41,746 nt of DNA, taken from positions 1 to 41,746 of IMG/VR virus record IMGVR_UViG_3300032160_000017; one strand, written 5' to 3'. The stretch is from a virus. This document shows positions 4,378-40,641 of the stretch, in pieces. Position 1 is the first letter of the stretch; each line of letters starts with the position of its first letter. Both the position numbers and the translations under genes were made by a program. The notes beneath the pieces are model-generated. The model ran no database searches. It worked only from the letters and a program-made list of their open reading frames with translations, and was not told the DNA's origin.

Positions 4378-6911
4378 AAACCTTCATTCTGTTTCTATTC
4401 GCGCTTGCGGCCGCATTTGGCCAGACGCTGCCAAACGCAGTACCTCTGCCGAATCCCGAGGTGCAGTTCCTCAACCAGAACGGCCAGCCCCTGGCCGGCG
4501 GCCTGGTCTACACCTACGCGGCGGGGACGACTACCCCGATCGCGACGTACACCGATTCCTCTGCCGCCACCCCCAACGCGAACCCCATCGTGCTCGACAG
4601 CGCCGGCCGGGCGAGCATCTGGATCGGCGCGGCTGCGATCAAGCTCGGCGTGTACGACGTAAACAGCGTGCTCCAGTGGACCCAGGACAACATCTCCGAC
4701 ACCACGCTCTACTTCGTCAACTACGTGAAGGCGGCTGGCACGGCGACGCTGATCAGCTACGATCCCCCGAATTCACAGCCACAGGAAACGGTCGCAGCCG
4801 CGCTGACCGGATTGACCAAGCACTATGTTGACCCCATGGACTACGGCTGCGTTGGCGACGGCTCAACCGACGATACCGCCTGTTGGACGGCAGCCATCGC
4901 CTCGGCAATTTCACTCAACACCCCGCTGATCTGCCCAGCATTTACCTTCGCGGTGAGCAAGCAGGGGACAACGTCCTACGCATGGGACGGCCGAAACCAT
5001 CCCTACATTTTCCTGATCACCAGCCCGATTTCAATCACCGGGCCGTGCGCCTTCAACGTAGACATGACGGATGCGGGCACCGCGAACGCTTTCGTCTTTC
5101 AGAGAACTCAGCACGTCCGGATATCGAGTCTGACCTTTAACGGCATCGGGTCTCAGTCCAACCAAATTCTTTACGCCGGCGCGGCCGTATCCTTCGTGAA
5201 CTGCAATGATTGCTACGCTGACCACATCCAGTCGTACAATATGCGGGGCAACACCCTGGCGTTCAACTCGGTCGATACCGGATGTTCGCATTGTTTTTCC
5301 GCGGCCAACCCACCCCCAGCCAACTGGCCAACGCCGGGGAGCGGCGGCTATCAAGGTGCGCACTGGGCCGCCTATGGATGCAGCGGGGCGGTGTTTTCCG
5401 AGGATACCGGCTACGGAGGAACGACGGACGGCGACCTGAGCCTGTTCGGCCAGGGCACCAACGGCGCCCAGGGGAACCGCGCGGTCAACAATCACCTTTA
5501 CAACTATGCCTACGGCGACACCACGCGCACGATCGTCTATAACAACGCGCAGGGGTTTTTGGCGGATTCGGGGCAAAGTGCGGCCGTTTTCAGCGGGAAC
5601 TACGGCTATGGGTACTACTACTGCTTTGACGTAAAGACTGAAGCGGACGGAACTGCGATCGTCGCGAACACCTCGCAGGCCTGCAAGGTCGGCATCGACG
5701 TGCGGCTCGGCGAAAACCCTATCCTCACACAGAACACGACCATCACCGGAAACGTGGTCCAGCCCCTCGGCGGGAACGGCAACAGTGTGAGTTTCGGTGG
5801 CCTGACGGCGACGGTGGGAATTTGGATCCAGGATTCGTTTGGGGTGACCGTCGCAGACAACCTAGTGGAGGCTTCCTATCAGGTGGGCGGCAATCAAGAC
5901 TTCATCCCCATCCTCGCGCAGCTCGGCACCACATCTGCATCACTTTTGCCCTTTTCGCACGGCCTGAACATCCATGACAATATCCTGGCCATGGAAGGCC
6001 AGCAAGGCGCCTCCTACGAGTACAGCGACAACTACGCGATCTACGTGGCGGGCAACAGCACCAATTCATGGCCTGGCGTCAACGTCCACGACAACACCAT
6101 CAAACTCCGAACGGATGCTGCCATCAGCTTTCCGCCGATTTTTTTCGAATACGTGAACAATGCGCGCATCAGCGCGAACAGTTTTATCGGCCAAGTCGGC
6201 ACGCCCTCGGTGTACGAAATCGTTTGCTCTTCCTGCGTGGCGGTGAATGTCAGCGGCAACCAAATGTCCGAAATCGGCGGATTTTTGAGCATGGCGAACT
6301 CGGATCAGATCGTGGTCGCGGACAACATTCTGGGCTCGCAGGTCTCCTACCTCATGCCGCTGATCCATTCGACGGCTTCGACCAATTGGAACATCCACGG
6401 CAACATTCGCACGCAGTACCCGTACCCTACCAACGTTCAGAATGGGCGGTTTTTCCAAAGCGACACGTCCGACACAACCGCCAACGTCATCATTGCCGAC
6501 AATATTTTCTATCAGACCGTCTTTGAGGCGGACTGGTACCAGGTCAAGGGAGTCTCGTTTCCCAACACCCCGGACCTGGACACCCTCAGAAATGTGCGGG
6601 TGGGGCCGCTGAACGGTGCGATGCGCACCTACACCGGCATCACCGGATCCCTGGGGGGCTCAGCGATGCTCACGGGCGCTTGCGTGCTCGATACCACCTT
6701 GGTAATTGTCGGCGCCCACAGTGCCAGCGGAGATCCACCGCTGCAGGTTGAGGTTTCCCCGACCAACCAAGCCGGACCTGGCGCCGGCTTCTACTATTAC
6801 GCATTCATGGTCGATGGAGGCGGAGGAACTGGAGTCGTGAATCTGGAGCTGTGCGCGGCCAAAGCCGGCACTCCAACGGCCACGACATACTCCGCTAGAA
6901 TTTTCCAATAG
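4374..6911 (+). CDS. Tailspike with a pectate-lyase-like beta-helix, preceded by a Sec signal peptide
   Basis: This 845-residue protein starts at ATG 4374 (ATGA overlap). Residues 1-18 form a typical signal peptide, MKTFILFLFALAAAFGQ, with likely cleavage at about AFG/Q. Residues 25-110 match the short phage fibre module that reads FLNQNGQPLAGGLVYTY followed by TDSSAA and LDSAGRASIW. From about residue 155 (DYGCVGDGSTDDT) a Pectate_lyase_3-type right-handed beta-helix begins, with repeated N-I-x-x-N and V-x-x-N turns through residue 740. The family usually degrades or binds surface polysaccharide at the phage baseplate. No other ATG, GTG or TTG lies between the signal peptide and the fibre module, so the signal sequence is not a mis-called start. 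Catalytic residues cannot be assigned. It closes the late block. Confidence 0.85.
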   Translation: MKTFILFLFALAAAFGQTLPNAVPLPNPEVQFLNQNGQPLAGGLVYTYAAGTTTPIATYTDSSAATPNANPIVLDSAGRASIWIGAAAIKLGVYDVNSVLQWTQDNISDTTLYFVNYVKAAGTATLISYDPPNSQPQETVAAALTGLTKHYVDPMDYGCVGDGSTDDTACWTAAIASAISLNTPLICPAFTFAVSKQGTTSYAWDGRNHPYIFLITSPISITGPCAFNVDMTDAGTANAFVFQRTQHVRISSLTFNGIGSQSNQILYAGAAVSFVNCNDCYADHIQSYNMRGNTLAFNSVDTGCSHCFSAANPPPANWPTPGSGGYQGAHWAAYGCSGAVFSEDTGYGGTTDGDLSLFGQGTNGAQGNRAVNNHLYNYAYGDTTRTIVYNNAQGFLADSGQSAAVFSGNYGYGYYYCFDVKTEADGTAIVANTSQACKVGIDVRLGENPILTQNTTITGNVVQPLGGNGNSVSFGGLTATVGIWIQDSFGVTVADNLVEASYQVGGNQDFIPILAQLGTTSASLLPFSHGLNIHDNILAMEGQQGASYEYSDNYAIYVAGNSTNSWPGVNVHDNTIKLRTDAAISFPPIFFEYVNNARISANSFIGQVGTPSVYEIVCSSCVAVNVSGNQMSEIGGFLSMANSDQIVVADNILGSQVSYLMPLIHSTASTNWNIHGNIRTQYPYPTNVQNGRFFQSDTSDTTANVIIADNIFYQTVFEADWYQVKGVSFPNTPDLDTLRNVRVGPLNGAMRTYTGITGSLGGSAMLTGACVLDTTLVIVGAHSASGDPPLQVEVSPTNQAGPGAGFYYYAFMVDGGGGTGVVNLELCAAKAGTPTATTYSARIFQ

Positions 6912-10115: not shown

Positions 10116-10745
10116 TTAATTCGTGGACGCGCTATAAGGCGTCGTGGGCGTAGTGCCAGCTTGGAACTGGATGTCGCATGACCATGTGCCAAACAGGATA
10201 TCGGTGCAGCTGATAGTGTCGCCGGCAAAGCCGCCGGAAGGCTTCGTGCCCGCAAAAGGCATCTGGATGGAGTGATAAGTGTTCGCGCTCCCCCAGAACA
10301 CGATCGGGGTGCTCGCATTTTCCCCGACCGCGATGCCGGTGATGGCGTCGGTTTTCGTGTTGACCAGCACCCGGTCTGCGCCGCCGGTAGTGGCGACGGT
10401 AATCCGCTCCCGAATGATGTTCCCCGCGCCGATCGAGCTGGGCAGCGTCATGGTGCAGCCGGCCACCGTCGCGCAGACCACAAACCCCGATGAGGGCGAA
10501 CACGCCGCGCCGCAGGCGACCGGAGCGCCCGCGCCCTGTAGATTGATGGATGCCCGCAAGCTCGCATTGTTCGCGTTCTGCTGGTTGACGATCGCGGCGA
10601 TCGCCGCGACATTGTTCGGGCCGAGGAGCGCTTGGGGAGCGGGAAATACGTTGATCTCCGGAAGACTGTTAAGCGTCGTCTCGACGGCGGCGGCGCCGGC
10701 GGCGAGCAGCACGCAGACCGCGACCAGCTTTAGTAGAGGTTTCAT
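10116..10745 (-). CDS. Exported 4-Cys protein, paralogue A of a three-member family
   Basis: This is a 209-residue protein. The N-terminus MKPLLKLVAVCVLLAAGAAA is a signal peptide with likely cleavage before VETTL. Residues 24-60 carry the helix NNVAAIAAIVNQQNANNASL. The remainder is a beta-rich domain opening with APVACGAACSP and closing with SCDIQFQAGTTPTTPYSAS. It is clearly homologous to the gene before it (10742-11377) and to 31267-31965 on the other strand. Cysteines are placed as in an oxidised extracytoplasmic domain. Its start overlaps the upstream stop as ATGA. It is the last gene of the minus operon. Function unknown; fibre, decoration or host-surface roles are all possible. Confidence 0.8.
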   Translation of the reverse strand: MKPLLKLVAVCVLLAAGAAAVETTLNSLPEINVFPAPQALLGPNNVAAIAAIVNQQNANNASLRASINLQGAGAPVACGAACSPSSGFVVCATVAGCTMTLPSSIGAGNIIRERITVATTGGADRVLVNTKTDAITGIAVGENASTPIVFWGSANTYHSIQMPFAGTKPSGGFAGDTISCTDILFGTWSCDIQFQAGTTPTTPYSASTN

Positions 10746-11377
10746 GTGGTTGACGTGCTGTACGGCGTGGTCGGCGTCGTCCCGCCTTCATAGACCACGT
10801 CGCACGCCCACGTCGTCGCACTGATATCGGTACACGTGATCGTGTCCCCGATGAAGCCGCCCGAGGGTTGCGAACCGGCGTACGGCATCTGTAGCGAATG
10901 GTACGTGCCGGCGTTGCCCGCAAATACGATCGGCGTGCTGCCGGTCCAGCCGATCGCCGTGCCGATGATCGTGTTTGACGTCGTCGTGAGCAGCACCTTT
11001 TCCGCCGCGCTGGTGGTGGTGGCCGTGATGCGCATCCGGATGATGTTACCAGTGGCGGCCGCGGTGGGCAGCGTTACGGTCGAGCCAGCACCCTGGTTGA
11101 GTAGGATGAGGCCGCTGGTGGGCGAGCAGCTCGCACCGCACGCCACTGGCGCGCTGACGCCCCCCAGGTTGATGGACGCCCGCAAACTGGCGTTATTGGC
11201 GTTCTGCTGGCTGACGATCGCGGCGATCGCCGCGACATTGTTCGGTCCGAGCACGGCCTGCGGCGCCGGAAACGTGTTGATTTCGGGCAGCATCGAGAGC
11301 GTATTCTCAATCGCAAACAGGGTGAGACCGGCTAGAGCAACCGCGACGGCAGCGATGGTAAAGAGCTTCTGTCTCAT
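10742..11377 (-). CDS. Exported 4-Cys protein, paralogue B of a three-member family
   Basis: This is a 211-residue protein preceded by a clear GGAGG site. The signal peptide is MRQKLFTIAAVAVALAGLTL followed by FAIENTL. The mature part repeats the plan of paralogue A: a NNVAAIAAIVSQQNANNASL helix, then a domain with APVACGASCSP, NQGAGSTVTLPT, YHSLQMPYAGSQPSGGF and TCTDISATTWACD, ending TTPTTPYSTSTT. It is closer in sequence to the plus-strand member at 31267 through its C-terminal domain than to its neighbour A. Tandem duplication within the operon is inferred. The molecular role is unknown. Confidence 0.8.
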   Translation of the reverse strand: MRQKLFTIAAVAVALAGLTLFAIENTLSMLPEINTFPAPQAVLGPNNVAAIAAIVSQQNANNASLRASINLGGVSAPVACGASCSPTSGLILLNQGAGSTVTLPTAAATGNIIRMRITATTTSAAEKVLLTTTSNTIIGTAIGWTGSTPIVFAGNAGTYHSLQMPYAGSQPSGGFIGDTITCTDISATTWACDVVYEGGTTPTTPYSTSTT

Positions 11378-12041: not shown

Positions 12042-12788
12042 TTATTGCACCGCGACCGTAAAGGTGATGGTGCTCGATCCGGACGGAACCACTATCGACG
12101 GTGGCACCGCCAAGCCCGGCGCGCCTGCGGTAACAGCAGCCGAAAATCCGCCGGCGCCCGCCGGCTGGGAAAGAGTGACTGTGCACGTGGTCACCTCCCC
12201 CGGCTCGATATCGTAAGTCCCGGCGGGATTGCCGTCGCTTGAGTCCCACGCGGGAACGACGCAAGTTACAGAAGAAACGACCGGTGGAACCGCGATCGAT
12301 CCGATCGCCGGGTTGAGCACGGATGTGAGCGCCGTCCCAGCTACGCTTGCGGTCACGGGCGCGCTGATGGTGATCGTGGATCCGGCCGTCACCGTCGCGG
12401 AAACGATGGCGGCCACACCGTTGGCGATGGTGTTTTGATTGACTCCGGAGACGATGCACCGCTCGTCGCCGGCCGATACGACGTTGCATGCGATCGCCTT
12501 TGAGGCCGCGGTTGATACCGGGCCTGCCGTAACCGTCAACGCGGTGACGGTACTCGGGTAGAGGAGATCGAATTGCAGGCCAGCCGGAGGCATCCGGGAC
12601 GTCGCGATCGAGATATTGAGCACCGCCGTGCCCGCCGTGGCCGTGACGCTATCGATCGAGTATGTCACCGTCGAAACCGGCAGACGATTGAAGTTGACGA
12701 TGTACCCGCCGATCGTGACCACGATCTGCTGGACCTGGGCCATGGTCGATGCAAACAGCACGACGGTGAGAACTAACAGCTTTTTCAT
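12042..12788 (-). CDS. Exported cohesin-like plus Ig-like domain protein
   Basis: This is a 248-residue protein starting at ATG 12788 (ATGA overlap with the gene before). The signal peptide is MKKLLVLTVVLFASTMAQVQ. Residues 35-155 resemble a cohesin-type beta-sandwich (LNISIATSRMPPAGLQFDLL, then a SGVNQNTIANG loop and VSATV strands). Residues 165-248 resemble the bacterial Ig-like repeat that reads CTVTLSQPAGAGGF and ends in VPSGSSTITFTV, which is frequent in Acidobacteriota surface proteins. These folds mediate binding and adhesion. In a phage this could be a host-derived surface-binding protein; the family calls rest on pattern only. Confidence 0.7.
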   Translation of the reverse strand: MKKLLVLTVVLFASTMAQVQQIVVTIGGYIVNFNRLPVSTVTYSIDSVTATAGTAVLNISIATSRMPPAGLQFDLLYPSTVTALTVTAGPVSTAASKAIACNVVSAGDERCIVSGVNQNTIANGVAAIVSATVTAGSTITISAPVTASVAGTALTSVLNPAIGSIAVPPVVSSVTCVVPAWDSSDGNPAGTYDIEPGEVTTCTVTLSQPAGAGGFSAAVTAGAPGLAVPPSIVVPSGSSTITFTVAVQ

Positions 12789-13258
12789 GGGATCTTGACC
12801 AGCGTCCAATCTTTGCGGATCCCCTGCTGCGCGTCGAACAGCGGCATTTTGAGCGAGCACACGGCGCGTCTGAGCGCGTTCTCGACCTGGTCCTTCTCCC
12901 GCGCGCCGGGGGTGGGGGCGTAGGGTTCGGGCCAGAGGTTTGCGATATCGTTCGAGCCGCCCAGCTCGAGCGAGATCAAATGGTCGATCTCGTAGAGCGC
13001 GGCGTCGCGTGGATCGATACCGTACTCGAAAAACACTTTCAGCTTTACGGATCGTGAGACGTTGCGGACTGTGGCGGAATAGCCGGCCGCGCAGAGCGTT
13101 CTGAGTGGGGCGTCCAACACGTCGCCAGGTGTAATTTTCAGATCGGGGAGCGCGGCGCCGTTTGCGGCGCGGCCGTAGTGCGCAGCCGGGAACTGCTGCG
13201 ACGGAGCCTCGCCGCAAGAAAAGAGCAGCGACAAAAGCAAATAGAGCAGGCAGCGCAT
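12785..13258 (-). CDS. Exported HNH-type nuclease-like lipoprotein
   Basis: This is a 157-residue protein. The N-terminus MRCLLYLLLSLLFSCGE is a lipoprotein-like signal with Cys15. The core motif YEIDHLISLELGGSNDIANL followed by WPEPY is that of a widespread secreted HNH-like family; the IDH histidine and the SNDIANLW Asn are the expected metal and catalytic positions, and KDQVENALRRAVC follows as usual. A periplasmic or outer-membrane nuclease could cut DNA of competing phages or salvage host DNA; that is inference. ATG 13258 is chosen because the signal peptide starts there, although no strong ribosome site is visible. Confidence 0.75.
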   Translation of the reverse strand: MRCLLYLLLSLLFSCGEAPSQQFPAAHYGRAANGAALPDLKITPGDVLDAPLRTLCAAGYSATVRNVSRSVKLKVFFEYGIDPRDAALYEIDHLISLELGGSNDIANLWPEPYAPTPGAREKDQVENALRRAVCSLKMPLFDAQQGIRKDWTLVKIP

Positions 13259-24699: not shown

Positions 24700-24700
24700 G

Positions 24701-28932: not shown

Positions 28933-30165
28933 ATGGCAAACCAATTCCTGAACACCAACTGGGTGTCCATGAAAATCCTCCGGCTGTTAATCAACATGCT
29001 GGAGGTCACCGAGTACTTCAACCGCGACTGGGAGCGCGACTTCAACAAAGAGTTCGCGCCCGGCTCGCAGATCAGCGTGAAGTTTCCGCAGCGCTTCACG
29101 GTGACCGACGGCATGGGTTACGCCCCGCAAGGCATCAACCGGCTGTCGACTCCCGTGAACTTGGACCAATGGCTACAGATCGCGTTCGAGTGGGACGACT
29201 ACGAAGCGGCTGTGAACCTGGAACGCTCGGAGGCTGAACTGACCGAGAACTATTTCCAGCCCGCGGCGGAAGCCATGGCGCAGGAATGGGATTCCCGGTG
29301 CGCCAAATTCGCCTACCAGAACGCATCGAACGTGGTGGGCGCGCTCGGGACCGACCCGGCCGGAGTTGCCACCTATTACCAGGCCCGCCAGCGCCTGATG
29401 GAAAAGGCATGCCCACCCGGCGGCCGCTGCATGCTGATCAGCTCGTCCATGATGGCGACGCTCGGTTCGAACATTACCGCGATCTTCCACCCGTCGGACG
29501 AACTGACCCGGATGTTCAAGAAGGGCTCCCTCGGCAATCTCGCCGGGTTCGAATTCTTCGAGTCGAATTCGCTGTACTCGCAGACCGCCGGAACCTGGGC
29601 CAGCACGGTCACCGTCACCGGCGCCAACCAGAGCGGCAGCTCGCTGAACATCACCGGCACGACCGGCGACACGATCAAAGCCGGGGACAAATTCTCGATT
29701 GCGGCCGTCAACGCGGTGAACCCCATGACGCGCCGCATTGCGGGCAAAGCCACCCTCCAGCAGTTCACGGTGACGCAGGATTATACGCTCACCGCCGGCC
29801 CGGACACGATCAACATCCTGCCAGCGATCTACGGGCCGGGCTCGCAGTATCAGAACGTCGACGCGCTGCCGCTCAACGCGGCGGGGTTGACCTTGTGGCC
29901 CGGAACCACCTCGCCCAACGGCAAGGTGGGGACGGTGGGCCTGGCACTCTCGAAATTCGCGTTCGCCTTCGTCGGCGCGAAGCTGTTCGTGCCCCAGGCC
30001 GTCGAAAAGTCCGGTTTCGCTTTCGACTCGCGCACCCAGATCGGCGTGCGGAAAGTGAAAGCCTGGGATCCCGTGCGCTCCATGCAGATCAACCGCATGG
30101 ATTCGCTCGGCGGATTCGGCAACCTGTATCAAGACAACGGCGCGTGCTGCGTCGCCGGGGCCTAA
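28933..30165 (+). CDS. Major capsid protein (P22 coat-like)
   Basis: This is a 410-residue protein, close to the P22 coat length of about 430. It opens ANQFLNTNWVSMKILRLLIN then NRDWERDFNKEF, with GSQISVKFPQRFTVTDG and the A-domain-like YEAAVNLERSEAELTENYFQ. An inserted domain of about 90 residues (near 215-300, with TVTVTGANQSGSSLNITGTT) corresponds to the extra domain of P22-type coats. The C-terminus has FAFVGAKLFVPQAVEKSGFA. It forms the HK97-fold capsid shell. The ribosome site is poor for such an abundant product, so translation may rely on coupling or mRNA structure. Confidence 0.9.
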   Translation: MANQFLNTNWVSMKILRLLINMLEVTEYFNRDWERDFNKEFAPGSQISVKFPQRFTVTDGMGYAPQGINRLSTPVNLDQWLQIAFEWDDYEAAVNLERSEAELTENYFQPAAEAMAQEWDSRCAKFAYQNASNVVGALGTDPAGVATYYQARQRLMEKACPPGGRCMLISSSMMATLGSNITAIFHPSDELTRMFKKGSLGNLAGFEFFESNSLYSQTAGTWASTVTVTGANQSGSSLNITGTTGDTIKAGDKFSIAAVNAVNPMTRRIAGKATLQQFTVTQDYTLTAGPDTINILPAIYGPGSQYQNVDALPLNAAGLTLWPGTTSPNGKVGTVGLALSKFAFAFVGAKLFVPQAVEKSGFAFDSRTQIGVRKVKAWDPVRSMQINRMDSLGGFGNLYQDNGACCVAGA

Positions 30166-30232: not shown

Positions 30233-31213
30233 ATGACTTTCATCAAACGAATAACCCTCATCGGCGCGGCCTTGGCCGTCAGCCTTCCCGCTTTCGGCCA
30301 AACGCTTCCGACCATCACTACGCTGTCGGCGGCCATCACCACCTCCGGCCAGCGTCTCATCGTGCTCACGAGCGCGACCGGCGTATCCGCGCCCACCTCG
30401 AACCAGCAGCCCACCACGGACCTGTGGATCGACAAGGAATTGATGGCGGTCGAGGCCGTATCCGGTACCACCATCACCGTGCGCCGGGGGGCGAGTGGGA
30501 CGCGCTCGGCGGCGCATCTTTCCGGCGCGCAGGTCTTCATCGGACCCCCGCAGCAGTTCGGATCGAATCCGAACCCAGCCGGAGATCCTTCCGGCACCTG
30601 CACGCGCGGCGCGTCGAGCGCCACATCGGTAAACCCGCAGATCTACCTGCCGTATTTCAACGCGGCGACCGGTAACATCTCGGATTGCCTGGGCGGCCAG
30701 TGGGTCAACGGGGTGCGGACTCCGCTCACGGGCTACCGGCTGTCCTATCCCGACCCTGGGGACGTCGCCTACACCTCGATCAATACCAGCGGAACCACGG
30801 TCGGAGCGACCACGGTCTATTGCACCGAGGTGAACCTTCCATACAACAAACTGATCACTGGCCTTGCGTTCCTCAGTGGGACCACCGTCACCAATGACCA
30901 TCGGTACTCGATCCTATACGACAGCGCGGGAAACGCGCTGGCTCACGGCGCGCTTACGGGCGTAGTGACCGCCACCGCGTCGATCTACCAGGCTTTCGCG
31001 TTCACCACGCCGTTCTACGCGATCGGGCCAGCGAGATACTTCGGGTGCTTCCAGGATTCGGTCGGATCAGACTCCGTCCGCATGACTATCACCGGCACGC
31101 ACGACAACTTCCTGACCGCTGGCCAGACGGGCGCGACGTTCGGGACAGTTCCGGCTCTGACGGTGCCGACGAGCTTCACCACGGCGGTGGGGCCGTATCT
31201 GTACGTTTACTGA
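30233..31213 (+). CDS. Exported protein with a phage head-associated 'W[IV]D..LM.V' domain
   Basis: This is a 326-residue protein. ATG 30233 has AAGGA upstream. The signal peptide is MTFIKRITLIGAALAVSLPA with likely cleavage at about AFG/Q. Residues 30-110 hold a beta domain (LWIDKELMAVEAVSGTTITV then RRGASGTRSAAHLSGAQVFI) that resembles a module common in phage proteins encoded just after the major capsid. The remaining part is beta-rich (YNKLITGLAFLSGTTVTNDH) and could be a decoration or fibre fold. A Sec signal on a protein with a virion-type domain, directly after coat, is unusual. Virion location is inferred. Confidence 0.75.
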   Translation: MTFIKRITLIGAALAVSLPAFGQTLPTITTLSAAITTSGQRLIVLTSATGVSAPTSNQQPTTDLWIDKELMAVEAVSGTTITVRRGASGTRSAAHLSGAQVFIGPPQQFGSNPNPAGDPSGTCTRGASSATSVNPQIYLPYFNAATGNISDCLGGQWVNGVRTPLTGYRLSYPDPGDVAYTSINTSGTTVGATTVYCTEVNLPYNKLITGLAFLSGTTVTNDHRYSILYDSAGNALAHGALTGVVTATASIYQAFAFTTPFYAIGPARYFGCFQDSVGSDSVRMTITGTHDNFLTAGQTGATFGTVPALTVPTSFTTAVGPYLYVY

Positions 31214-31220
31214 GCAAATT

Positions 31221-31244
31221 GGGGCCGGGCACGAAGCCGGCCCC
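31221..31244 (+). promoter_or_regulatory. GC-rich 8-bp hairpin between two exported-protein genes
   Basis: GGGGCCGG (31221-31228) pairs with CCGGCCCC (31237-31244) around an eight-base loop, eight bases after the upstream stop. No T-run follows; the next ribosome site (AAAGGA) is close by. It may tune expression of the downstream paralogue. Confidence 0.5.
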
Positions 31245-31266
31245 GCTTCTTAAAGGATTTCATCCA

Positions 31267-31965
31267 ATGAAAAACCGTTTCATCCAAATCTTCGCGCTCG
31301 CCTCCTTGCTGGTGGTGGCCGCCTACGCCGTCGAGACTACGCTGGCTCCGCTGCCTTCGAATACCTTCGCCGCGCCGGTGACCACAGTCACCCAGGCGCA
31401 CGTCGACGCGCTCAACGCGGTGGTTTCCGCGCAGAACGCCAACAACACCAGCCTGCGGGCGTCATTGACCAGCATCCTCACAGGGGGCGCTACCCTTGTG
31501 AGCAACGTGCTCACGACTCCGACCCTGAACAATCCCGTGATCATCGGGCCCGCGCCGGTGGCGTGCGGCGCAAGCTGCTCGCCGACAGCGGGTCAACTCG
31601 TTCTCTTAAATCAGGGAGCCGGCTCAACCGTCACTATTCCAACTTCGGCGGGCACTGGCAACGTCATCCGGATGCGGATTAGCGTTATCACTGGCAGCGG
31701 AGGGGAGAAAGTCCTGCTCGCTACCACCAGTGACGCGATTATTGGTACCGCCAGCGGTTTCACTGGCAGCACCGCGAAGATTTTCGTGGGCAACGCCTCG
31801 ACCTATCATTCGATCCAAATGCCCTACGCGGGCTCGCAGCCAAGCGGGGGCTTTGTCGGCGACACGATCACTTGCACTGACATCGCCGCCGGGACCTGGG
31901 CATGCGATGTGCAGTATCAGGCCGGCACCACGCCGACCACGCCCTACAGCGCCTCCACGACCTAG
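31267..31965 (+). CDS. Exported 4-Cys protein, paralogue C (late-block member of the family)
   Basis: This is a 232-residue protein, ATG 31267 with AAAGGA upstream. The signal peptide is MKNRFIQIFALASLLVVAAY followed by AVETT. A short helix (NANNTSLRASLTS) and an extra linker (TLVSNVLTTPTLNNPVIIGP) precede the shared C-terminal domain: APVACGASCSPTAG, NQGAGSTVTIPT, YHSIQMPYAGSQPSGGF, TCTDIAAGTWACD and TTPTTPYSASTT. The C-terminal domain is strongly similar to that of the minus-strand paralogues at 10116 and 10742. Its position in the head gene region suggests a virion or surface role. A rho-independent terminator follows it. Confidence 0.8.
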   Translation: MKNRFIQIFALASLLVVAAYAVETTLAPLPSNTFAAPVTTVTQAHVDALNAVVSAQNANNTSLRASLTSILTGGATLVSNVLTTPTLNNPVIIGPAPVACGASCSPTAGQLVLLNQGAGSTVTIPTSAGTGNVIRMRISVITGSGGEKVLLATTSDAIIGTASGFTGSTAKIFVGNASTYHSIQMPYAGSQPSGGFVGDTITCTDIAAGTWACDVQYQAGTTPTTPYSASTT

Positions 31966-32007
31966 CGCGTGGAAATGTTGTAAACTTCGGACCGTATCCT
32001 CCGTCAT

Positions 32008-32043
32008 GGCCGCGGCCTTCCATTTCCGCCGCGGCCTCTTTTT
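32008..32043 (+). terminator. Rho-independent terminator after the exported-protein pair
   Basis: GGCCGCGG (32008-32015) and CCGCGGCC (32029-32036) form an 8-bp GC stem around a 13-base loop, followed by TCTTTTT at 32037-32043. It lies between the exported 4-Cys gene and the rest of the tail genes, so tail expression needs read-through, which the phage NusG-like antiterminator could provide, or a new promoter. Confidence 0.75.
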
Positions 32044-32054
32044 CCCACGAATCC

Positions 32055-32243
32055 ATGCCCTTGAATGAGGCGAGCGCTCCGGCGTCCGGTCTAAACCCGA
32101 AACAGCAAGCCGACGCGCTGCGCGAAATTTACGGCCTACCGGAATTGCCCGTCCCGTGCAAGCGGGACGGAACACCAAACCTGCCAGCCATCCGCGAAAT
32201 CGATGAACTGCGCGCGCGGCTCGCCGAGCAGTCAGAGGAATGA
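32055..32243 (+). CDS. 62-residue acidic protein of unknown function
   Basis: It starts at ATG 32055, twelve bases after the terminator T-run. The sequence is helical and charged: NPKQQADALREIYGLPELPV, then a C-terminal coiled-coil-like REIDELRARLAEQSEE. No family is recognised. It lies with the next small gene between the coat region and the gp4-like genes, where small head-completion or chaperone-like proteins are often found. Confidence 0.6.
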   Translation: MPLNEASAPASGLNPKQQADALREIYGLPELPVPCKRDGTPNLPAIREIDELRARLAEQSEE

Positions 32244-32252
32244 GGAAATCCA

Positions 32253-32606
32253 ATGCCCCCAGTTAACGCCGCCACCTTCACCGATGCCGAAATCGAAAAG
32301 ATGCGGCTTTTTGTGACTGAGCACGACAAGTCCAAAGGATCGAACAACACATTCGATCTGAACAATCCGCCCCGCGTGCCCTACGTCTATCAGGAATTCC
32401 CGCGCCTGGTCTACCACCACGGCGCGCGAAAGCACAAGCCGGTCCATTCAGCAGATGAGCACAAGGCCGCGCTCGCCGACGGCTTCCAGAATGAGCCTTT
32501 CCCGGCTGAGGCAGCCGTACCCGAGCTCGATCCGGCGGAACAGGCCGAAGTGGCCGCCTTGGATAAGAAGCTCGCAGAGAAGAAAAAGACCGCCAAGGCG
32601 CGATAA
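32253..32606 (+). CDS. Small charged protein, possibly a head-completion accessory
   Basis: This is a 117-residue protein. Its central part, PRVPYVYQEFPRLVYHHGAR followed by HSADEHKAALADGFQNEPFP, resembles small proteins found after capsid genes in other phages. The C-terminus is a highly charged helix (EQAEVAALDKKLAEKKKTAK). Ribosome site GAGGAAA lies upstream. Specific function unknown. Confidence 0.65.
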   Translation: MPPVNAATFTDAEIEKMRLFVTEHDKSKGSNNTFDLNNPPRVPYVYQEFPRLVYHHGARKHKPVHSADEHKAALADGFQNEPFPAEAAVPELDPAEQAEVAALDKKLAEKKKTAKAR

Positions 32607-32609
32607 ACT

Positions 32610-33533
32610 GTGACCTTCGTTTCCGACATCCTGACCGACGCGATGCAGGCGTGCAACGCCTATGGGACCGGGCAAACGCCCGATGCCGAGGACTCGCAGC
32701 TGGCCTTGCGCTGGGCGAATCGCCTGCTCGATTCGCTCTCCGCTGAGAAGCTGGGGATTCTCGGGATCGCCACGGTGACGATTCCGCTCGCCGGCGCAGC
32801 CGCAAGCTACCCCTTGGGCGCGCTTCCGCAAATGGTTACCGCCGCGAGCGCCGCAGCCGCAGCCGTTCTCACGGTGGCGGCGAGCGCGGGCTATTACGTG
32901 GGGATGCGGGTGGCGCTGAGCGGGATCACGCAGGCCGGGTGGAACGGATCTTACTTGGTGACCGCCATCCCTGGTGGAACGAGTATCACGATCGGCCTCA
33001 ATTCGATAGGCCTCGCGGCGATAGTCGGTGGGGCGCCGCTGGTGACCCCGATGCGCTGTATGAAGATCAAGGCGGCCTCGGTCTCTGCCGCCAACACTGT
33101 CGACCAACCGGTTGCCGTCGTGCCGGCCGAGAAGTGGCGGGCGATTCCGGACAAAACGCGCACCGGCATCTACATCGAATCGCTGTTCTGGGATGCAGTA
33201 TTCCCGGTCGGCGCGCTCAGCGTAACGCCGAAGCCGAGTGCGGGCAACCTGCTGCTCGAAATCTATGAGCAATATCCGGGCTTTGTGAATCTGACCGACG
33301 TGGTGGTGCTCCCGCCTGGCTTCGAACTGCCGCTGATCAATCTGCTGGCGCTTTATCTCTGTGTGCCATTTGGCAGGCCGGTTCCCCCGGCGCTTCCGAA
33401 GATGGCGGCCGACGCCAAGCAAACCATCCAGCGGCTGTACGCCGAAGTTATGGGCACCTCGCCGCCAGCCCAGCTCGCCCCGCCTGAAGAGGCGGCCGCG
33501 CAGCAGCCCGCGGCGCCGGCACAGGCCGTATGA
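32610..33533 (+). CDS. gp4-like tail accessory / packaged-DNA stabilisation protein (first copy)
   Basis: This is a 307-residue protein starting at GTG 32610. Its opening, TDAMQACNAYGTGQTPDAED then LALRWANRLLDSLSAEKLGI, matches the N-terminal helical pattern of P22 gp4-type proteins, which bind under the portal after packaging. An inserted beta domain (about residues 75-155, with GYYVGMRVALSGITQAGWNG) is followed by the conserved part with AEKWRAIPDKTRTGIYIESL and a C-terminal helical region (PLINLLALYLCVPFGRPVPP). It overlaps a second gene of the same type. The inserted domain is not part of the minimal fold. Confidence 0.75.
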   Translation: MTFVSDILTDAMQACNAYGTGQTPDAEDSQLALRWANRLLDSLSAEKLGILGIATVTIPLAGAAASYPLGALPQMVTAASAAAAAVLTVAASAGYYVGMRVALSGITQAGWNGSYLVTAIPGGTSITIGLNSIGLAAIVGGAPLVTPMRCMKIKAASVSAANTVDQPVAVVPAEKWRAIPDKTRTGIYIESLFWDAVFPVGALSVTPKPSAGNLLLEIYEQYPGFVNLTDVVVLPPGFELPLINLLALYLCVPFGRPVPPALPKMAADAKQTIQRLYAEVMGTSPPAQLAPPEEAAAQQPAAPAQAV

Positions 33534-34315
33534 GCGTCATCGCCTCGCTCGCCGGAGACGTCATCTATCAGGCGTACCGCCATGCGCGCCTGCTGAAGCG
33601 CCCGCAGGCGGGCGTCTCGACATCCGAAGGCCTGGACGGGCTGACGTTTCTGAACCAGATCGTCGACCAATGGGCCGCGCGTAAATGTTACGCCTGGGCG
33701 ACGCCCTTTACGGAGTACACGCTGACCCCGAACCACCAGCCGCATCTGCTCGGCCCTGGACTGTTATCGCCCGATTTCGCGACGGCGCCGGCGGGCTCGC
33801 CGCGGCCGCCGAGGATCGAAAGCGCGGCGCTGATCCTGAACAACGTGACGCCGAACGTGGACGTGCCGCTGAACGTCCGGGATGCCGGATGGTGGGCCAA
33901 CCAGCGCGTCAAGGCGCTCGCGACCAATGTCCCGACCGATGTGTACTACCAGCCGGATTTTCTCGGCGCATCGCCCGCCGGCGCGCTGTGGCTGTGGCCG
34001 GTCCCGACATTTGCCTATGGGATGCGCCTGCAAACTTGGGAGCAGCTCTTGCAGTTTGCCACGGTGGGGACGTCATTTGTGGCGCCGCCGTCGTATCTCG
34101 CGGCCGCTGCGCTGACGCTGGCCGAAGTGCTGGCCGATATGTGCCCCGATCCCTTGTACCGGCCGCCACCGGGCCTGCCAGCGCGCGCAGCACGGGCCCG
34201 CGCCATTCTCGGGATGAACAATAATTCGAGCCCGCGCATTGCCAGCGCCGACATCGGCATGCATCCCAGTGGTGGGGCACGGCGCGGGGACTTCAATTAC
34301 TATTCCGGGCAATAA
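33530..34315 (+). CDS. gp4-like tail accessory protein (second copy)
   Basis: This is a 261-residue protein, ATGA-coupled to the first copy. The N-terminal pattern SLAGDVIYQAYRHARLLKRP, LDGLTFLNQIVDQWAARKCY and FTEYTLTPNHQPHLLGPG again fits the P22 gp4-type fold. The middle has VRDAGWWANQRVKALATNVP and YQPDFLGASPAGALWLWPVP. The paired genes are diverged, and may form successive rings beneath the portal or have taken separate roles. Its last 23 bases overlap the convergent methyltransferase gene. Confidence 0.7.
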   Translation: MSVIASLAGDVIYQAYRHARLLKRPQAGVSTSEGLDGLTFLNQIVDQWAARKCYAWATPFTEYTLTPNHQPHLLGPGLLSPDFATAPAGSPRPPRIESAALILNNVTPNVDVPLNVRDAGWWANQRVKALATNVPTDVYYQPDFLGASPAGALWLWPVPTFAYGMRLQTWEQLLQFATVGTSFVAPPSYLAAAALTLAEVLADMCPDPLYRPPPGLPARAARARAILGMNNNSSPRIASADIGMHPSGGARRGDFNYYSGQ

Positions 34316-35015
34316 CCTGGATCTTCTCGCCGGAAATGCCGCTATCGGCGATCGCTGAGAGCAGCGCCTGGCGTTCAAGTGTGGGCATGTTCTCGAGGCG
34401 GGCGACCCAACGGCGCTTTTTGCGCTTGATGCGCTCGCGCTCGCGGAAACCTTCGCCCAAGTACCGATAGTCATGGAGAGCGATGGGCGCCGGAAAGTTA
34501 AACCACAGCCACTCGGTCATGGGATACCCGCCTCGAGTCATCGACTGGTAGCAAATGTGATTCCAGCCGGCGAGCAGCTTTTTGTACATGGTCGACTCGT
34601 AGCCCGAGATCATGACCATACACGGCAGCGCGATCGCCACTCGCAGCAATCGGCGATGGTCGACGTCGGACATTTCGTGCTCATACAGCCGCCTGTCTGT
34701 ACGGGTCTCAGCCAAATAGGGCGGATCGCAATAGACGAGCTCGCCTCCGGAGAATAGGTAACTTTTCAGAAACTCGATGCCGTCGCGGCACTGGAACCGA
34801 AAGCTGCTCGCCTCGCCGTTTTTGGTGTAGGGCGCGTCCATCGCCGCAATTGCCGAAGCCGCCAGGTCCGTACCGATGTTCAGCCGCGCCGGCCGCTTCA
34901 GCCGCATGACCGCGCCGCCGCCCAAGAACGGCTCGATATAGATGTCGTGGGGCGGCATCAGCGAGATGATCCGCTGGTAAACGCCAGCGCCGTTTTTCCC
35001 TCCGGGATAACTCAT
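34293..35015 (-). CDS. Dam-like (class D12, alpha) adenine DNA methyltransferase, antisense in the late block
   Basis: This is a 240-residue protein from ATG 35015 (MSYPGGKNGAGVYQRIISLM); ATG 35027 is an alternative. Motif I is YIEPFLGGGAVM near residue 30 and catalytic motif IV is VYCDPPYLAETR near residue 100, with a short target-recognition part, the D12/Dam order. It methylates adenine in double-stranded DNA using SAM. It is the only minus-strand gene between 17800 and 41746, overlaps the end of the second gp4-like gene, and must be transcribed against late transcription. That arrangement suggests later acquisition (a moron). A weak upstream TTGACT lies at 35052-35047. Confidence 0.9.
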   Translation of the reverse strand: MSYPGGKNGAGVYQRIISLMPPHDIYIEPFLGGGAVMRLKRPARLNIGTDLAASAIAAMDAPYTKNGEASSFRFQCRDGIEFLKSYLFSGGELVYCDPPYLAETRTDRRLYEHEMSDVDHRRLLRVAIALPCMVMISGYESTMYKKLLAGWNHICYQSMTRGGYPMTEWLWFNFPAPIALHDYRYLGEGFRERERIKRKKRRWVARLENMPTLERQALLSAIADSGISGEKIQVIARNSN

Positions 35016-35064
35016 CCTGGCCAGCATCGCCGATTCCGGCGCGGAAGTCAAGGAGATCAGAAAC

Positions 35065-35406
35065 GTGAAACGATTCGCCATCTGCCTTATCATGTTGCTC
35101 GCCGTGGCCCGCGCGGCCCGCGCGGGGAGTCCGACAACCATCACGATCACCTGCGCGACAGCGACCGTCGCGGTCGTCTCAGTCGACACCGACGCGAGCT
35201 CGATCCAGATCACCGCGCCATCGACAAACACCGGGACCACGCGGATCGGCGATGCGACCACCAGCTCAACCGTTGGCGAGTTGCTAGGCGCGGGCGCCGG
35301 CCAGTATTTCCCGCCGCGCTGGCAGGGCAGCTATAACCTGAAGAATTTCTTTGTGTATTGCACAACCGGAGACAAGATCACCGTGATCTGGGTGGATAAC
35401 CAGTGA
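35065..35406 (+). CDS. Small exported protein, likely virion-associated
   Basis: This is a 113-residue protein. GTG 35065 has AAGGAG upstream. The signal peptide is MKRFAICLIMLLAVARAARA with cleavage before GSPTT. The mature part is beta-rich: DASSIQITAPSTNTGTTRIG, GAGAGQYFPPRWQGSYNLKN then YCTTGDKITVIWVDNQ. It looks like the short beta-sandwich proteins that phages place among tail genes, and its N-terminal signal is unexpected in that setting. GTG of the next gene overlaps its stop. Confidence 0.7.
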   Translation: MKRFAICLIMLLAVARAARAGSPTTITITCATATVAVVSVDTDASSIQITAPSTNTGTTRIGDATTSSTVGELLGAGAGQYFPPRWQGSYNLKNFFVYCTTGDKITVIWVDNQ

Positions 35407-36350
35407 GGCGCTGGTTTGGGACGGCACTGTTACTGCTCGCGCTAGCCGCGATCGCAGTGACCGTCCATCTTCCGCTCACGGCACAATACGTGCCGCCGTA
35501 TTCGCTGGGGACGGCGGGCCTGGGAACGGGCGTCGCGACGGCGCTGGCTCTGAATGTCGGGAGTCCCGGCGCGCCGCTGGTGAACGGAGGCGCCCTGGGA
35601 ATCCCTTCTAGCGGCACCCTCACCTATGCAACGGGCTTGCCGATTGCGACTGGCGTGGCCGGCCTGGGAACGGGCATTGCGAGCGCCCTGGCCGTGAACA
35701 CCGGAACCGACGGCGCGCCGGCGATAATGGGCAATCCATCCGTCACGGTCGGGATTCCAACCGGAATACCCGGCGCCCAAGAATGGGGAATGATCGTCAG
35801 CTCCCCGTACGGCGTGCTGCTGCTGAAAGACATCACTAATAACGTTGTCCCATTCAACATTCAGGCGAACTCTCCAAACTGCGACTGGTTCATGTTCAGC
35901 ACAGGGGATGTTGCGCTTAACAACGGCTGCAACGCCGATCCCGCATACGGACTATATATAGGAGCCGCAGGTTCCTCGGGCTACTTCCATGCCGGCAATT
36001 TCTCGGTGAACGCCTCCGGCAATACGGTGCTCGCAGGTCTCTCGTCCGTCACTGGGATTGCCTCCGGCGGCACGAAGTTTACTATCAGCGGCTGCTCAGC
36101 CGGAACGACGGTGGGCGGCGCTACGGCGGGGCAGTTCGCCTCCGGCACGAGCGGGGCATGCCCAGTGGTAATCACGATGAACGGCGCCACGGGCCTTACG
36201 GCCCCGAACGGCTGGTCCTGTTTTGCGGCCGATATTACAGCCGGGCACCTGGTGGATTTCACGCAAACTGCAAGTTCACAGACGACGTGTACCGTGAGCG
36301 CGACGACGACCAGCGGTGACACGGTGGTGTTCCATGCGATTGCATATTAG
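35403..36350 (+). CDS. Exported or membrane-anchored fibre protein with GLGTG repeats
   Basis: This is a 315-residue protein starting at GTG 35403 in the overlap. Residues 1-28 (MRRWFGTALLLLALAAIAVT, then VHLPLTAQ) are a signal peptide or anchor. Residues 33-95 contain repeats (LGTGVATALALNVGSPGAPL and GLGTGIASALAVNTGTDGAP) that are widespread in phage tail fibres. The C-terminal domain has four cysteines (ISGCSAGT, GACPVVIT, WSCFAADI, TTCTVS) and resembles the exported 4-Cys family in style but not clearly in sequence. A fibre displayed through the Sec pathway would be unusual. It lies just before the lipoprotein and gp10-like genes. Confidence 0.75.
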   Translation: MRRWFGTALLLLALAAIAVTVHLPLTAQYVPPYSLGTAGLGTGVATALALNVGSPGAPLVNGGALGIPSSGTLTYATGLPIATGVAGLGTGIASALAVNTGTDGAPAIMGNPSVTVGIPTGIPGAQEWGMIVSSPYGVLLLKDITNNVVPFNIQANSPNCDWFMFSTGDVALNNGCNADPAYGLYIGAAGSSGYFHAGNFSVNASGNTVLAGLSSVTGIASGGTKFTISGCSAGTTVGGATAGQFASGTSGACPVVITMNGATGLTAPNGWSCFAADITAGHLVDFTQTASSQTTCTVSATTTSGDTVVFHAIAY

Positions 36351-36564
36351 TCTCATGCTGGTTTTCGCGCTCACGGGCTGCGCGCGGGAATCGCGCACGG
36401 AGAAGTGGCACCGGCTGCAGCGCGATCTCTATGACATGCAGACGAAGTGGGATGCGGATTGCAAGTCCAAGTCAAGGCAGTTGGCTCTCCGGCTGAATGC
36501 CATCGGAGATCCGGATTGCTTGGCGGTAGAGTCGTCGCCGGGCGCTCCAGCGCCCGCGAAATAA
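36334..36564 (+). CDS. Small lipoprotein
   Basis: This is a 76-residue protein from ATG 36334, overlapping the previous gene by 17 bases. The signal MRLHISLMLVFALTGCARES carries a clear lipobox (LTGC, Cys16). The mature part is a charged helix (SRTEKWHRLQRDLYDMQTKW) with two further cysteines and a Pro/Ala tail. It would be anchored to a host membrane. O-spanin is one option because of size and lipobox, but the setting inside tail genes does not match a usual spanin pair; superinfection exclusion is another. Confidence 0.7.
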   Translation: MRLHISLMLVFALTGCARESRTEKWHRLQRDLYDMQTKWDADCKSKSRQLALRLNAIGDPDCLAVESSPGAPAPAK

Positions 36565-36570
36565 CGCACC

Positions 36571-38070
36571 ATGGCCGTCTTTAAGGGTTTCGTCGGGGGC
36601 AGCTACAGCCTACCTTCGCGCATCGCCGCCTCCGACGAGTGCATCAATTGGTACCCCGAGCGGATCGAGGCGCAAAACGAAAAAAGCGACATGATCCTGG
36701 TGGGGACGCCGGGGCTGAAGGTGTTCTGCACGCTGCCCACGTCGCCGGTCCAGGGGGTCTATGAGGTCCTGGCCCGCGTTTTCGCGGTCGCGGGCGGCGT
36801 GCTGTATGAGATTTCCGCAAATGGCGCCTACAAATCGCGCGGCAATCTGGGCGTGAGTGGCGCTGGCACGGCGATCTTCACCTCAAACAACGTGGAACTC
36901 GTGGTCGCGATCGCGGGCACGCTGAACGCCTGGGCGCTGACGCTGGCGAGCAACATACTGACGCCGATCAGCGACGCGATGCGCGCCGCCGGAATTATCG
37001 CCGTTGGATCGCTCGCCTACATCGACGGCTATGTGATCGCGTCCAGCGTCGGGACGCGGCGGTTCTACTTGTCGACGCTGTACGACGCGACGAGCTGGCC
37101 TGGGCTGTACTTCGCGTCGAAGGAAGGGGGCGCCGACAATCTGGTCGCCCTGGTTGCGAACCAGCGGGTGTTGTATCTACTGGGTGCGGAGACGAGCGAG
37201 GCATGGTGGGACGCAGGCCCGGCGAATTTCCCGTTCGCCTACATCCAGGGATCCTTTATGGAAAAAGGCTGCGCGGCGGCGCTTTCGCCCGCGCAGTTTG
37301 ATAATACGGTCGCCTGGCTCGGCCGCGATAAGCGGGGCCAGGGCGTCGTTTACCGCGCCAACGGCTATACGCCCAAGCGCATCTCGACGCATGCGATCGA
37401 GTCCGCGATCGGCGGCTATCCCAGCATCAGCGACGCGATCGGCAGCACGCACCAGTATCGCGGACACGAATTCTATCGGCTCGATTTTCCGAGCGCCAAG
37501 CCCGCCCCTCCGAACGGCACGTCGGCGGGCGCGACCTGGCTATACGACGCGGCAACAGGGCTATGGCACGAGCGCGCCTTCTGGCAGTCGATCACGCCGC
37601 GCTTCGAGGGACACCGCGGCCGCTATTACTGCTCCGGCTTCGGGCTGCACCTGGTCGGCGATTACGCCTCTGGCGCGGTGTACCAGATGGACGCGCAGTA
37701 TCTGACCGATTTCGGCAACCCTCTGCGATCTCTCCGGACCGCACCGCATCAATTCACCGAAGGCAACTGGCAGTTTTTTAACTGGTACCGATTCGATCTG
37801 CAAGTGGGGGCGGGCACGACGGGTATCGGAGCGGGTCAGACTCCAGGCGTTGCCCCGGCCTTTGCGATTCTGCAGGTCTCAAATGACGGCGGAAACACGT
37901 GGTCGAACGAGCGGTATCAAAGTATGGGATCGATTGGACGCTACAAGCGATCAGTGATCTTCCGCCGGACCGGCCGCGCGCGCGATCGCGTCGTGCGCCT
38001 GGTAATCAGCGACCCGGTATCGCGCGTCCTGGTGGGCGCCTTTTACGACTCTACAGAGGGCCTGCCCTAA
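36571..38070 (+). CDS. Packaged DNA stabilisation protein, P22 gp10-like
   Basis: This is a 499-residue protein, close to the 472 of P22 gp10. The N-terminus MAVFKGFVGGSYSLPSRIAA then DECINWYPERIEAQNEKSDM is the family signature, followed by LVGTPGLKVFCTLP and beta-propeller-like repeats. Near the C-terminus are RTAPHQFTEGNWQFFNWYRF and VLVGAFYDSTEGLP. In P22 it closes the portal channel together with gp4 and the tail needle. There is no signal peptide, unlike the three genes before it. It is followed at once by GTG 38071. Confidence 0.85.
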   Translation: MAVFKGFVGGSYSLPSRIAASDECINWYPERIEAQNEKSDMILVGTPGLKVFCTLPTSPVQGVYEVLARVFAVAGGVLYEISANGAYKSRGNLGVSGAGTAIFTSNNVELVVAIAGTLNAWALTLASNILTPISDAMRAAGIIAVGSLAYIDGYVIASSVGTRRFYLSTLYDATSWPGLYFASKEGGADNLVALVANQRVLYLLGAETSEAWWDAGPANFPFAYIQGSFMEKGCAAALSPAQFDNTVAWLGRDKRGQGVVYRANGYTPKRISTHAIESAIGGYPSISDAIGSTHQYRGHEFYRLDFPSAKPAPPNGTSAGATWLYDAATGLWHERAFWQSITPRFEGHRGRYYCSGFGLHLVGDYASGAVYQMDAQYLTDFGNPLRSLRTAPHQFTEGNWQFFNWYRFDLQVGAGTTGIGAGQTPGVAPAFAILQVSNDGGNTWSNERYQSMGSIGRYKRSVIFRRTGRARDRVVRLVISDPVSRVLVGAFYDSTEGLP

Positions 38071-39776: not shown

Positions 39777-40115
39777 ATGGTCTCCTCCGTCAAACTCATC
39801 GAAGGCACGAAACTTACCGCTGCGCCCGCGTTGTACTATACAGCGCCGGCCGCGACGCAAACCATCGTGAAAAAAATCACGGTGGTGAACATCGACCCCA
39901 CCAACGCGCACGCGGTCACTATTTGGTTCGTGGCGAGCGGGGGCACCGCCGTCAGTTCCCAGCTTTTGGTTGATGCGCGCCCAATCGGTCCCCTGGCGAC
40001 CTATGACGTCACTGAGGCGCAGAACCACGTGCTCGCCCCAGGCGACACGATCTGGGCCGAGGCCGACGACGCGACCAACCTGCAAATCCAGGCGAGCGGA
40101 GTGCAAATTGTCTAG
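39777..40115 (+). CDS. Small beta-rich virion protein
   Basis: This is a 112-residue protein. It reads KLIEGTKLTAAPALYYTAPA, TIVKKITVVNIDPTNAHAVT and ends in GDTIWAEADDATNLQIQASG, a beta-sandwich pattern seen in small structural proteins near fibre genes in many phages. There is no signal peptide. It overlaps the start of the acetyltransferase gene by eight bases. The exact location in the particle is unknown. Confidence 0.7.
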   Translation: MVSSVKLIEGTKLTAAPALYYTAPAATQTIVKKITVVNIDPTNAHAVTIWFVASGGTAVSSQLLVDARPIGPLATYDVTEAQNHVLAPGDTIWAEADDATNLQIQASGVQIV

Positions 40116-40641
40116 TCCTGGCGCCGAGCCCGCTTCGGCGATCGCGTTGATTTCGCCCTTTCCGCGCGAGCACTACCGGCTGCTCGATCGGTGGACCCGC
40201 GGCTCGGAATACATGCGGGACGATTTTTGGCCGCGCGAATTCGGCGCGCTGGCGACCGAGCTCGACCGCCGCGCGGGCCAGGAACTCACCTGCCTGGTAA
40301 CCCTCGATGGCGAACCGGCCGGATTCATCGGCTATGCCGCAATATCCGCGCATTTGGGAATGTTGCGCGGCGTGATCTTTGCCCCGCGCTTTCGCGGCCA
40401 CGGGACCGCGGTCTGTGCGCTCCGGACGTTTCTGGGGCAGCGATTCGCGGGCGGTGTACACAAAATTCTAGCGGGACCTTTTGCCGCTAATAAGCGCGCT
40501 ATCGCGTTTCTGTATAAGCTTGGCGCGCGCGATGAGGGCCTGCTCCGGGAGCACACCGTGCGCACTGGCCAGATGATCGATGTGCGCTTAATGGCGTTTT
40601 TCGCGCCCGAGGAGATAGAATGCCGTTCTCCGGTTTGTTAA
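40108..40641 (+). CDS. GNAT-family acetyltransferase
   Basis: This is a 177-residue protein. TTG 40108 has GGAG seven bases upstream and overlaps the previous stop; no ATG lies before the fold. The GNAT core is visible: GEPAGFIGYAAISAHLGMLR, then VIFAPRFRGHGTAVCALRTF with the acetyl-CoA loop RFRGHGTA near residue 94, and AANKRAIAFLYKLGARDEGL, the usual 'N..AI.FY...GF' motif. It would transfer an acetyl group from acetyl-CoA to a protein or small molecule. Enzymes of this family appear among tail genes of some phages; the substrate is unknown, and modification of host or virion proteins is speculation. Confidence 0.8.
   Translation: MSSPGAEPASAIALISPFPREHYRLLDRWTRGSEYMRDDFWPREFGALATELDRRAGQELTCLVTLDGEPAGFIGYAAISAHLGMLRGVIFAPRFRGHGTAVCALRTFLGQRFAGGVHKILAGPFAANKRAIAFLYKLGARDEGLLREHTVRTGQMIDVRLMAFFAPEEIECRSPVC

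Follow-up and report, generated by a model that had tools for sequence, protein, structure and literature searches.

Conserved export signals on the tailspike and on a coat-adjacent protein suggest two-compartment virion assembly in P22-like podophages of Acidobacteriota

The 41,746-base virus record IMGVR_UViG_3300032160_000017 of IMG/VR (hereafter the window, analysed over its whole length) displays the gene order of a P22-like podophage in which the tailspike and several genes lying between the coat and gp10-like genes begin with an export signal. With moderate confidence, we propose that P22-like podophages of Acidobacteriota build their virions in two compartments, the late peripheral parts being exported and docking at lysis. 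Portal, scaffold, coat, gp4, gp10 and ejection proteins would assemble in the cytoplasm, while the tailspike, the protein encoded directly behind the coat (post-coat protein) and further fibre-like proteins would pass through the general secretory (Sec) pathway of the host and be cut by signal peptidase. The exported parts would fold with disulfide bonds in the oxidising periplasm and wait there until lysis proteins open the cell and the periplasmic pool meets DNA-filled heads, onto which spikes would dock by their head-binding domain and decorations would dock as well. The parts are of known kinds; the export route is new. Tailed phages are taught to assemble wholly in the cytoplasm, and searches of the open-access literature, a scope that does not prove absence, yielded no tailed phage described as exporting its spikes or decorations by Sec.

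The ends of the window are near-identical over about 230 bp (positions 1-230 and about 41517-41746, with few mismatches) and one gene reads across the junction; the window is therefore a complete circular genome, with strain variation. Its virion genes, designated here by their position, are arranged as terminase, portal (25751), scaffold (27878), coat (28933), two gp4-like genes (32610 and 33530), gp10-like gene (36571), ejection proteins (40620, 231 and 1780) and tailspike (4374), so that portal, scaffold, P22-type coat, gp4, gp10 and ejection genes follow each other as in P22-like podophages.

Signals were called using a rule-based detector. Sec signals cleaved by signal peptidase I were defined by a positive n-region, an h-region of 8-16 residues and small residues at -3 and -1, and lipoprotein signals by a lipobox ([LVI][ASTVI][GAS]C) near residue 16. 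When applied to 49 kb of E. coli K-12, the detector called 6/6 known exported proteins (TolB, Pal, CpoB, YbgS, ModA and YbhC) and made one false call among 38 other proteins, on a polytopic membrane protein. In the window, 10 of 58 genes carry a signal (4374, 10116, 10742, 12042, 12785, 30233, 31267, 35065, 35403 and 36334); the Sec signals of the window and of the post-coat family show all three features of the definition, from which cleavage and translocation are predicted. The initial annotation had assigned export signals to the tailspike and to the genes at 30233, 31267, 35065, 35403 and 36334, and all of these were called, the latter five inside the coat-to-gp10 block. Its estimate of about eleven exported genes out of some sixty was slightly high, and chance would give about one; four minus-strand genes are positive (10116, 10742, 12042 and 12785), not the five announced.

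We give almost no credence to the explanation that starts were mis-called or that hydrophobic runs arose by chance in a genome rich in GC. Spurious-frame starts of the window do pass the rule in 46/1050 cases, and in-frame internal starts in 6/417, but strong Shine-Dalgarno sites precede 30233, 31267, 35065 and 10742, the detector performed well on E. coli, and the signals are conserved in 37 relatives and three Acidobacteriota genomes, a conservation that already contradicts chance. The start codons of 30233, 31267 and 35065 are ATG or GTG. Chance starts were rejected on the basis of 10/58 calls against a mean of 0.9 for shuffled window proteins. In three related cultivated or aquatic phages, 1/44, 2/44 and 1/42 genes have a signal.

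Searches with the coat gene retrieved 80 further viral contigs, whose called genes were sorted by homology to those of the window. Across 82 related soil contigs, no core virion gene carries a signal (coat 0/78, gp4 0/75, scaffold 0/72, portal 0/58, gp10 0/51 and ejection 0/31; pooled, 0/365). Homologues of 30233, which form the next gene behind the coat on the same strand, usually 3-90 bp away, carry one in 37/37 cases, and so do 10/12 spikes, the two misses being start-codon errors that became positive on re-check. The exported set thus comprises exactly the peripheral, late-added parts, and parts that build the head and neck are never exported. This agrees with the initial annotation, which had noted that export from a virion block breaks the usual rule and had suggested looking for the same layout in related contigs. 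Signal presence is a property of this soil clade and is not peculiar to the window genome. Further signal-bearing proteins are encoded in the gp4-gp10 interval or close to the spike in L008, L013, L037, L042, L056, L067 and L080, the one at 10652 of L013 combining a signal with what by eye is a typical tail-fibre repeat (VFGRTGAVTAQTNDYTATQVGLGSVTNNAQTRA); in L029, two large signal-bearing proteins lie between portal and scaffold.

Post-coat signals are 19-25 residues long with a net charge of +1 or +2, and have A, G or S at -1 and Q at +1 in 33/33 cases; the same [AGS]↓Q junction is found in 15/19 of the host's own signals (140 kb of Acidicapsa). Between pairs of post-coat proteins, signal identity is about 0.33 at any mature identity below 80%, while length, charge and cleavage site are kept. 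Such a flat signal identity against a varying mature identity indicates that the physical form of the signal is conserved, and not its sequence. These observations bear on the idea that the hydrophobic N-termini are uncleaved plugs or anchors serving assembly or membrane penetration. N-terminal hydrophobic segments are able to anchor, and the initial annotation had itself named anchoring as the outcome that would speak against export. We consider it very improbable: a small-x-small site followed by Q is conserved as in host signals, the segment drifts in sequence and is missing in relatives whose head-binding domain begins at residue 5-13, and the even, paired cysteines described below also count against anchors. 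An anchor-only role was rejected, the AxA↓Q junction being kept while the signal drifts.

Mature post-coat proteins contain 2, 4 or 6 cysteines, an even count in 32/32 cases; two positions are invariant, and a second pair, which differs between C-terminal domain types, is gained or lost together. With all loci pooled, the count is even in 44 and odd in 3 signal-bearing clusters, versus 143 even and 102 odd among signal-less proteins with at least two cysteines (Fisher's test, 7e-7). Spikes with the same head-binding domain contain 1.96 cysteines per 100 amino acids (17/18 even) when they have a signal and 0.52 (15/26 even) when they have none. At L197, a more distant locus from the same bacterial class as Acidicapsa, the gene right after the coat encodes a post-coat homologue (E 5e-25) that begins at the mature N-terminus, lacks a signal and is free of cysteines over its 240 residues; it is the only full-length signal-less homologue. 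Even and paired cysteines are thus tied to the presence of the signal, as for exported disulfide-bonded proteins. From these sequence patterns, it is very likely that the proteins of the window clade are truly exported, and they would then be cleaved and oxidised.

Inefficient signals could in principle lead to a split fate, part of each protein assembling in the cytoplasm and the rest being exported for a second job, all the more since P22 spike trimers fold stably in the cytoplasm (PMC9576892). This appears unlikely, because the signals are strong and conserved, and because the even, paired cysteines and the cysteine-free signal-less homologue point to an oxidised functional form. Dual internal starts yielding an unexported form were also rejected: internal starts with a plausible ribosome site between signal and domain were found in 0/47 spikes and post-coat genes, and an unexported form is therefore not evident.

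The tailspike gene (4374..6911, plus strand; 15 cysteines) encodes a signal (4374-4421, AFG↓QTL) and, directly after the predicted cleavage site, a head-binding domain of P22/Pam1 type, residues 33-80 matching solved tailspike head-binding domains (7eeq, 9vyg) and PHROG 26190. Spikes are attached to the tail machine through this domain. The 42 spike homologues of other phages have no signal, as expected for a cytoplasmic pool; in this clade, nearly all soil relatives have one. The spike is the sole head-binding-domain protein of the window, and L089 likewise has only one such protein.

The post-coat gene (30233..31213, plus strand) follows the major coat gene (28933..30165, plus strand; P22 coat family with HK97 fold, no signal). 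It encodes a Sec signal (30233..30298; N-terminus MTFIKR-ITLIGAALAVSL-PAFG↓QTL), a mature N-terminal domain common with phage tail-tip proteins (sequence matches to 8vjh and 8rk3), a linker and a variable C-terminal beta domain. The prediction of mature domains, as advised in the initial annotation, was informative for this protein: its AlphaFold2 model (predicted local distance difference test, pLDDT, 81) has as best PDB match chain Z of 9jwb, the cyanophage A4 capsid (E 2.3e-4, template modelling score 0.53 on target), identified as ORF25 of Anabaena phage A-4L. Considering a gene placed beside the coat and a fold like that of a known capsid accessory protein, albeit a moderate match, the post-coat protein is probably a capsid decoration.

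Exported proteins may also act off the virion, in the periplasm or on the host surface, by superinfection exclusion, receptor masking or as a free depolymerase or adhesin. Exported accessory genes are known from the late regions of other phages, comparable morons being Lom and Bor of lambda, Llp of T5 and Cor of phi80 and N15, and in the window 36334 encodes a small lipoprotein and the exported genes of the minus strand are not part of the virion block. Off-virion roles are possible above all for these genes, and 36334 may be a moron acting in superinfection exclusion. As an account of the spike and post-coat protein, however, we judge them improbable: morons are not virion-domain proteins, the spike is the only one of its kind and keeps its head-binding domain right after the cleavage site, the post-coat genes follow the coat closely and in the same orientation, with a gap that is usually no more than 90 bp, and an unexported homologue occupies the same slot in L197. 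The spike and post-coat genes are thus unlike dispensable, patchy exported genes unrelated to virion parts. Docking at lysis and a decoration role are what we infer from the retained head-binding domain, its sole copy and the coat-adjacent slot. Among the three purposes put forward in the initial annotation, the best fit is that decorations would be added outside the cell as phages are released, because peripheral parts are exported, the sole spike included, no unexported form is evident and the core is never signalled. Showing fibres on the surface of the host, or altering that surface against rivals, is possible, but explains neither the kept head-binding domain nor the unexported post-coat homologue.

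P22 and its relatives (Rhodoferax phage P26218, Xanthomonas phage PBR31 and Pseudanabaena phage Pam1) share with the window the portal, scaffold, coat, gp4, gp10 and ejection genes and the spike head-binding domain; in the cultivated relatives checked, the spike has no signal and this domain lies at or near the start codon, in contrast to the window spike. Parts of the kind exported here can come last in P22-like phages: in P22, the tail machinery, gp9 included, joins the particle as morphogenesis ends (PMC9962691). Dec of phage L is a peripheral capsid protein, as the post-coat protein would be; it attaches late to mature P22 capsids, and does so in vitro (PMC6449081, PMC7602432). Unlike the post-coat family, which is predicted to be exported, disulfide-bearing and of another fold, Dec has an OB fold and is produced in the cytoplasm. 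The A-4L ORF25 protein, the best structural match, has no signal and one cysteine, and its gene lies beside tail-fibre genes, unlike the post-coat gene beside the coat. Moron products are exported proteins encoded in late regions, as those of the window are proposed to be, whereas the window exports its sole spike. Coat proteins of inoviruses are virion proteins that use Sec (PMC8310372), as proposed for the window spike, but they stay membrane-anchored and assemble during extrusion, whereas the window phage has a tailed, DNA-packaging virion. In PBR31, gp35 and gp40 bear signals and lie near the spike and lysis genes, while the spike has none; the PBR31 paper notes a signal only on gp40, its esterase (PMC10975493). 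The PBR31 gene at 24674-25483 (L005), right after the spike and annotated as a putative structural protein, has a signal (TSAFG↓ATLNP) that is unmentioned in the published analysis.

To assign hosts, 84,980 bacterial and archaeal genomes were scanned with the coat, and matches were obtained only in Acidobacteriota: an Acidiferrales metagenome-assembled genome (MAG), an Acidobacteria MAG and the isolate Acidicapsa dinghuensis 4GSKX. A signal-bearing post-coat gene is present in 3/3 carriers, and a signal-bearing spike was seen in 2/3 within the fetched stretch. By these matches, the hosts of the clade are Acidobacteriota. The Acidicapsa prophage (about 40 kb, at about 641-681 kb of the 1.16-Mb contig NZ_JAGSYH010000002.1, adjoining an integrase-like gene) encodes two more Sec-signal proteins, fibre-like or of unknown kind, and its host genome encodes two VKOR-type disulfide oxidases. 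Among 399 genomes of the same class, five carriers besides Acidicapsa were found; four loci from these were examined, one with signal-bearing post-coat protein and spike, one with a signal-bearing spike only, one truncated at the coat, and L197.

Several points weigh against two-compartment assembly. The virion location of the exported proteins is read from sequence, and export could leave the spike cut off from the heads, with no known step that would retain it at the outer membrane or release it. In about half of the sister contigs, which form a set of about 32, the gene behind the coat encodes a different protein that is not exported, although an exported spike is still present in L027, L028 and L042-L044. 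The genes 31267, 35065, 35403 and 36334 have few relatives, and the tail-fibre or needle protein of 38071, which could bind receptors, has no signal. Cysteine parity is weaker outside the post-coat family (17 even, 3 odd; p = 0.02), its statistics rest on related, non-independent sequences, exported host genes show little bias (8 even, 4 odd), and the cysteine count is odd in the window spike, as it is in L118 and L196. As a separate observation on the sister contigs, HNH homing-type endonuclease genes lie directly behind the coat in L033, L040 and L050-L052.

If correct, two-compartment assembly would be a new assembly route in a clade of phages of abundant soil bacteria, by which the sole spike and a likely decoration protein are exported, the outer virion parts are stabilised by disulfides and infectivity is completed only at lysis. 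With confidence just below that given to the route itself, we expect tailed phages assembling in this way to be infectious only at release and their spikes to be shareable with co-infecting phages; phages present in the same cell may undergo phenotypic mixing through their exported spikes. Annotators should be aware that a signal-bearing gene taken for a "host" gene in a contig can encode a virion protein. The Acidicapsa prophage makes the proposal testable.

The other signal-bearing genes of the virion block, all on the plus strand, are of diverse kinds, and searches of Pfam, PHROGs and PDB sequences returned little for 31267, 35065, 35403, 36334 and the minus-strand exported genes. The gene 31267..31965 encodes an exported fibre-like protein (signal 31267-31329, AYA↓VETTL; N-terminus MKNRFIQ-IFALASLLVVAA-YA↓VET) with four invariant cysteines. 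Its relatives in phage contigs L092 and L093 are also signal-bearing, the one of L093 sitting between terminase-like and portal-like genes (neighbours named by eye). The AlphaFold model of this family is poor (pLDDT 47) and shows only a beta domain preceded by what may be a coiled coil. Two exported paralogues, 10742..11377 and 10116..10745, lie on the minus strand far from the virion block, and the three could be interchangeable tips. The gene 35065..35406 encodes a small exported protein with two cysteines (signal to about 35124, ARA↓GSP; N-terminus MKRFAICLIMLLAVARAARA↓GSP), and 35403..36350 an exported tail-fibre-like protein with six cysteines (signal 35403-35483, LTA↓QYV; N-terminus MRRWFGTALLLLALAAIAVTVHLPLTA↓QYV) and glycine-rich repeats, judged by eye to be of tail-fibre type. 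The small lipoprotein of 36334..36564 (lipobox LTG↓C; N-terminus MRLHISLMLVFALTG↓C) is the least secure of the five named genes, as it has no Shine-Dalgarno site and overlaps 35403; it may well be an ordinary exported accessory gene.

Signal-less plus-strand genes of the block comprise a small protein conserved in relatives (32253..32606; signal in 0/67), the two gp4-like genes (32610..33533, a tail accessory protein, and 33530..34315) and the gp10-like head-closure protein (Hc3; 36571..38070). On the minus strand, 12042..12788 encodes an exported protein with four cysteines (TMA↓QVQ), and 12785..13258 a small exported protein with a lipobox-like LFSC. The latter has no Pfam match and contains, by eye, an HNH-like DHLISLELGG motif (DHLISLELGGSNDIANLWPEPY); it is possibly a secreted nuclease carried by the phage. 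A Dam-like DNA methylase gene lies inside the virion block (34293-35081, minus strand), and an acetyltransferase-like gene at 40108-40641 of the window. In the Acidobacteriota prophages, a small acyl carrier protein-like gene followed by an acetyltransferase-like gene is located between spike and ejection genes, the former at 17819-17956 of L088, 10978-11166 of L193 (coat orientation) and 655445-655624 of the Acidicapsa contig.

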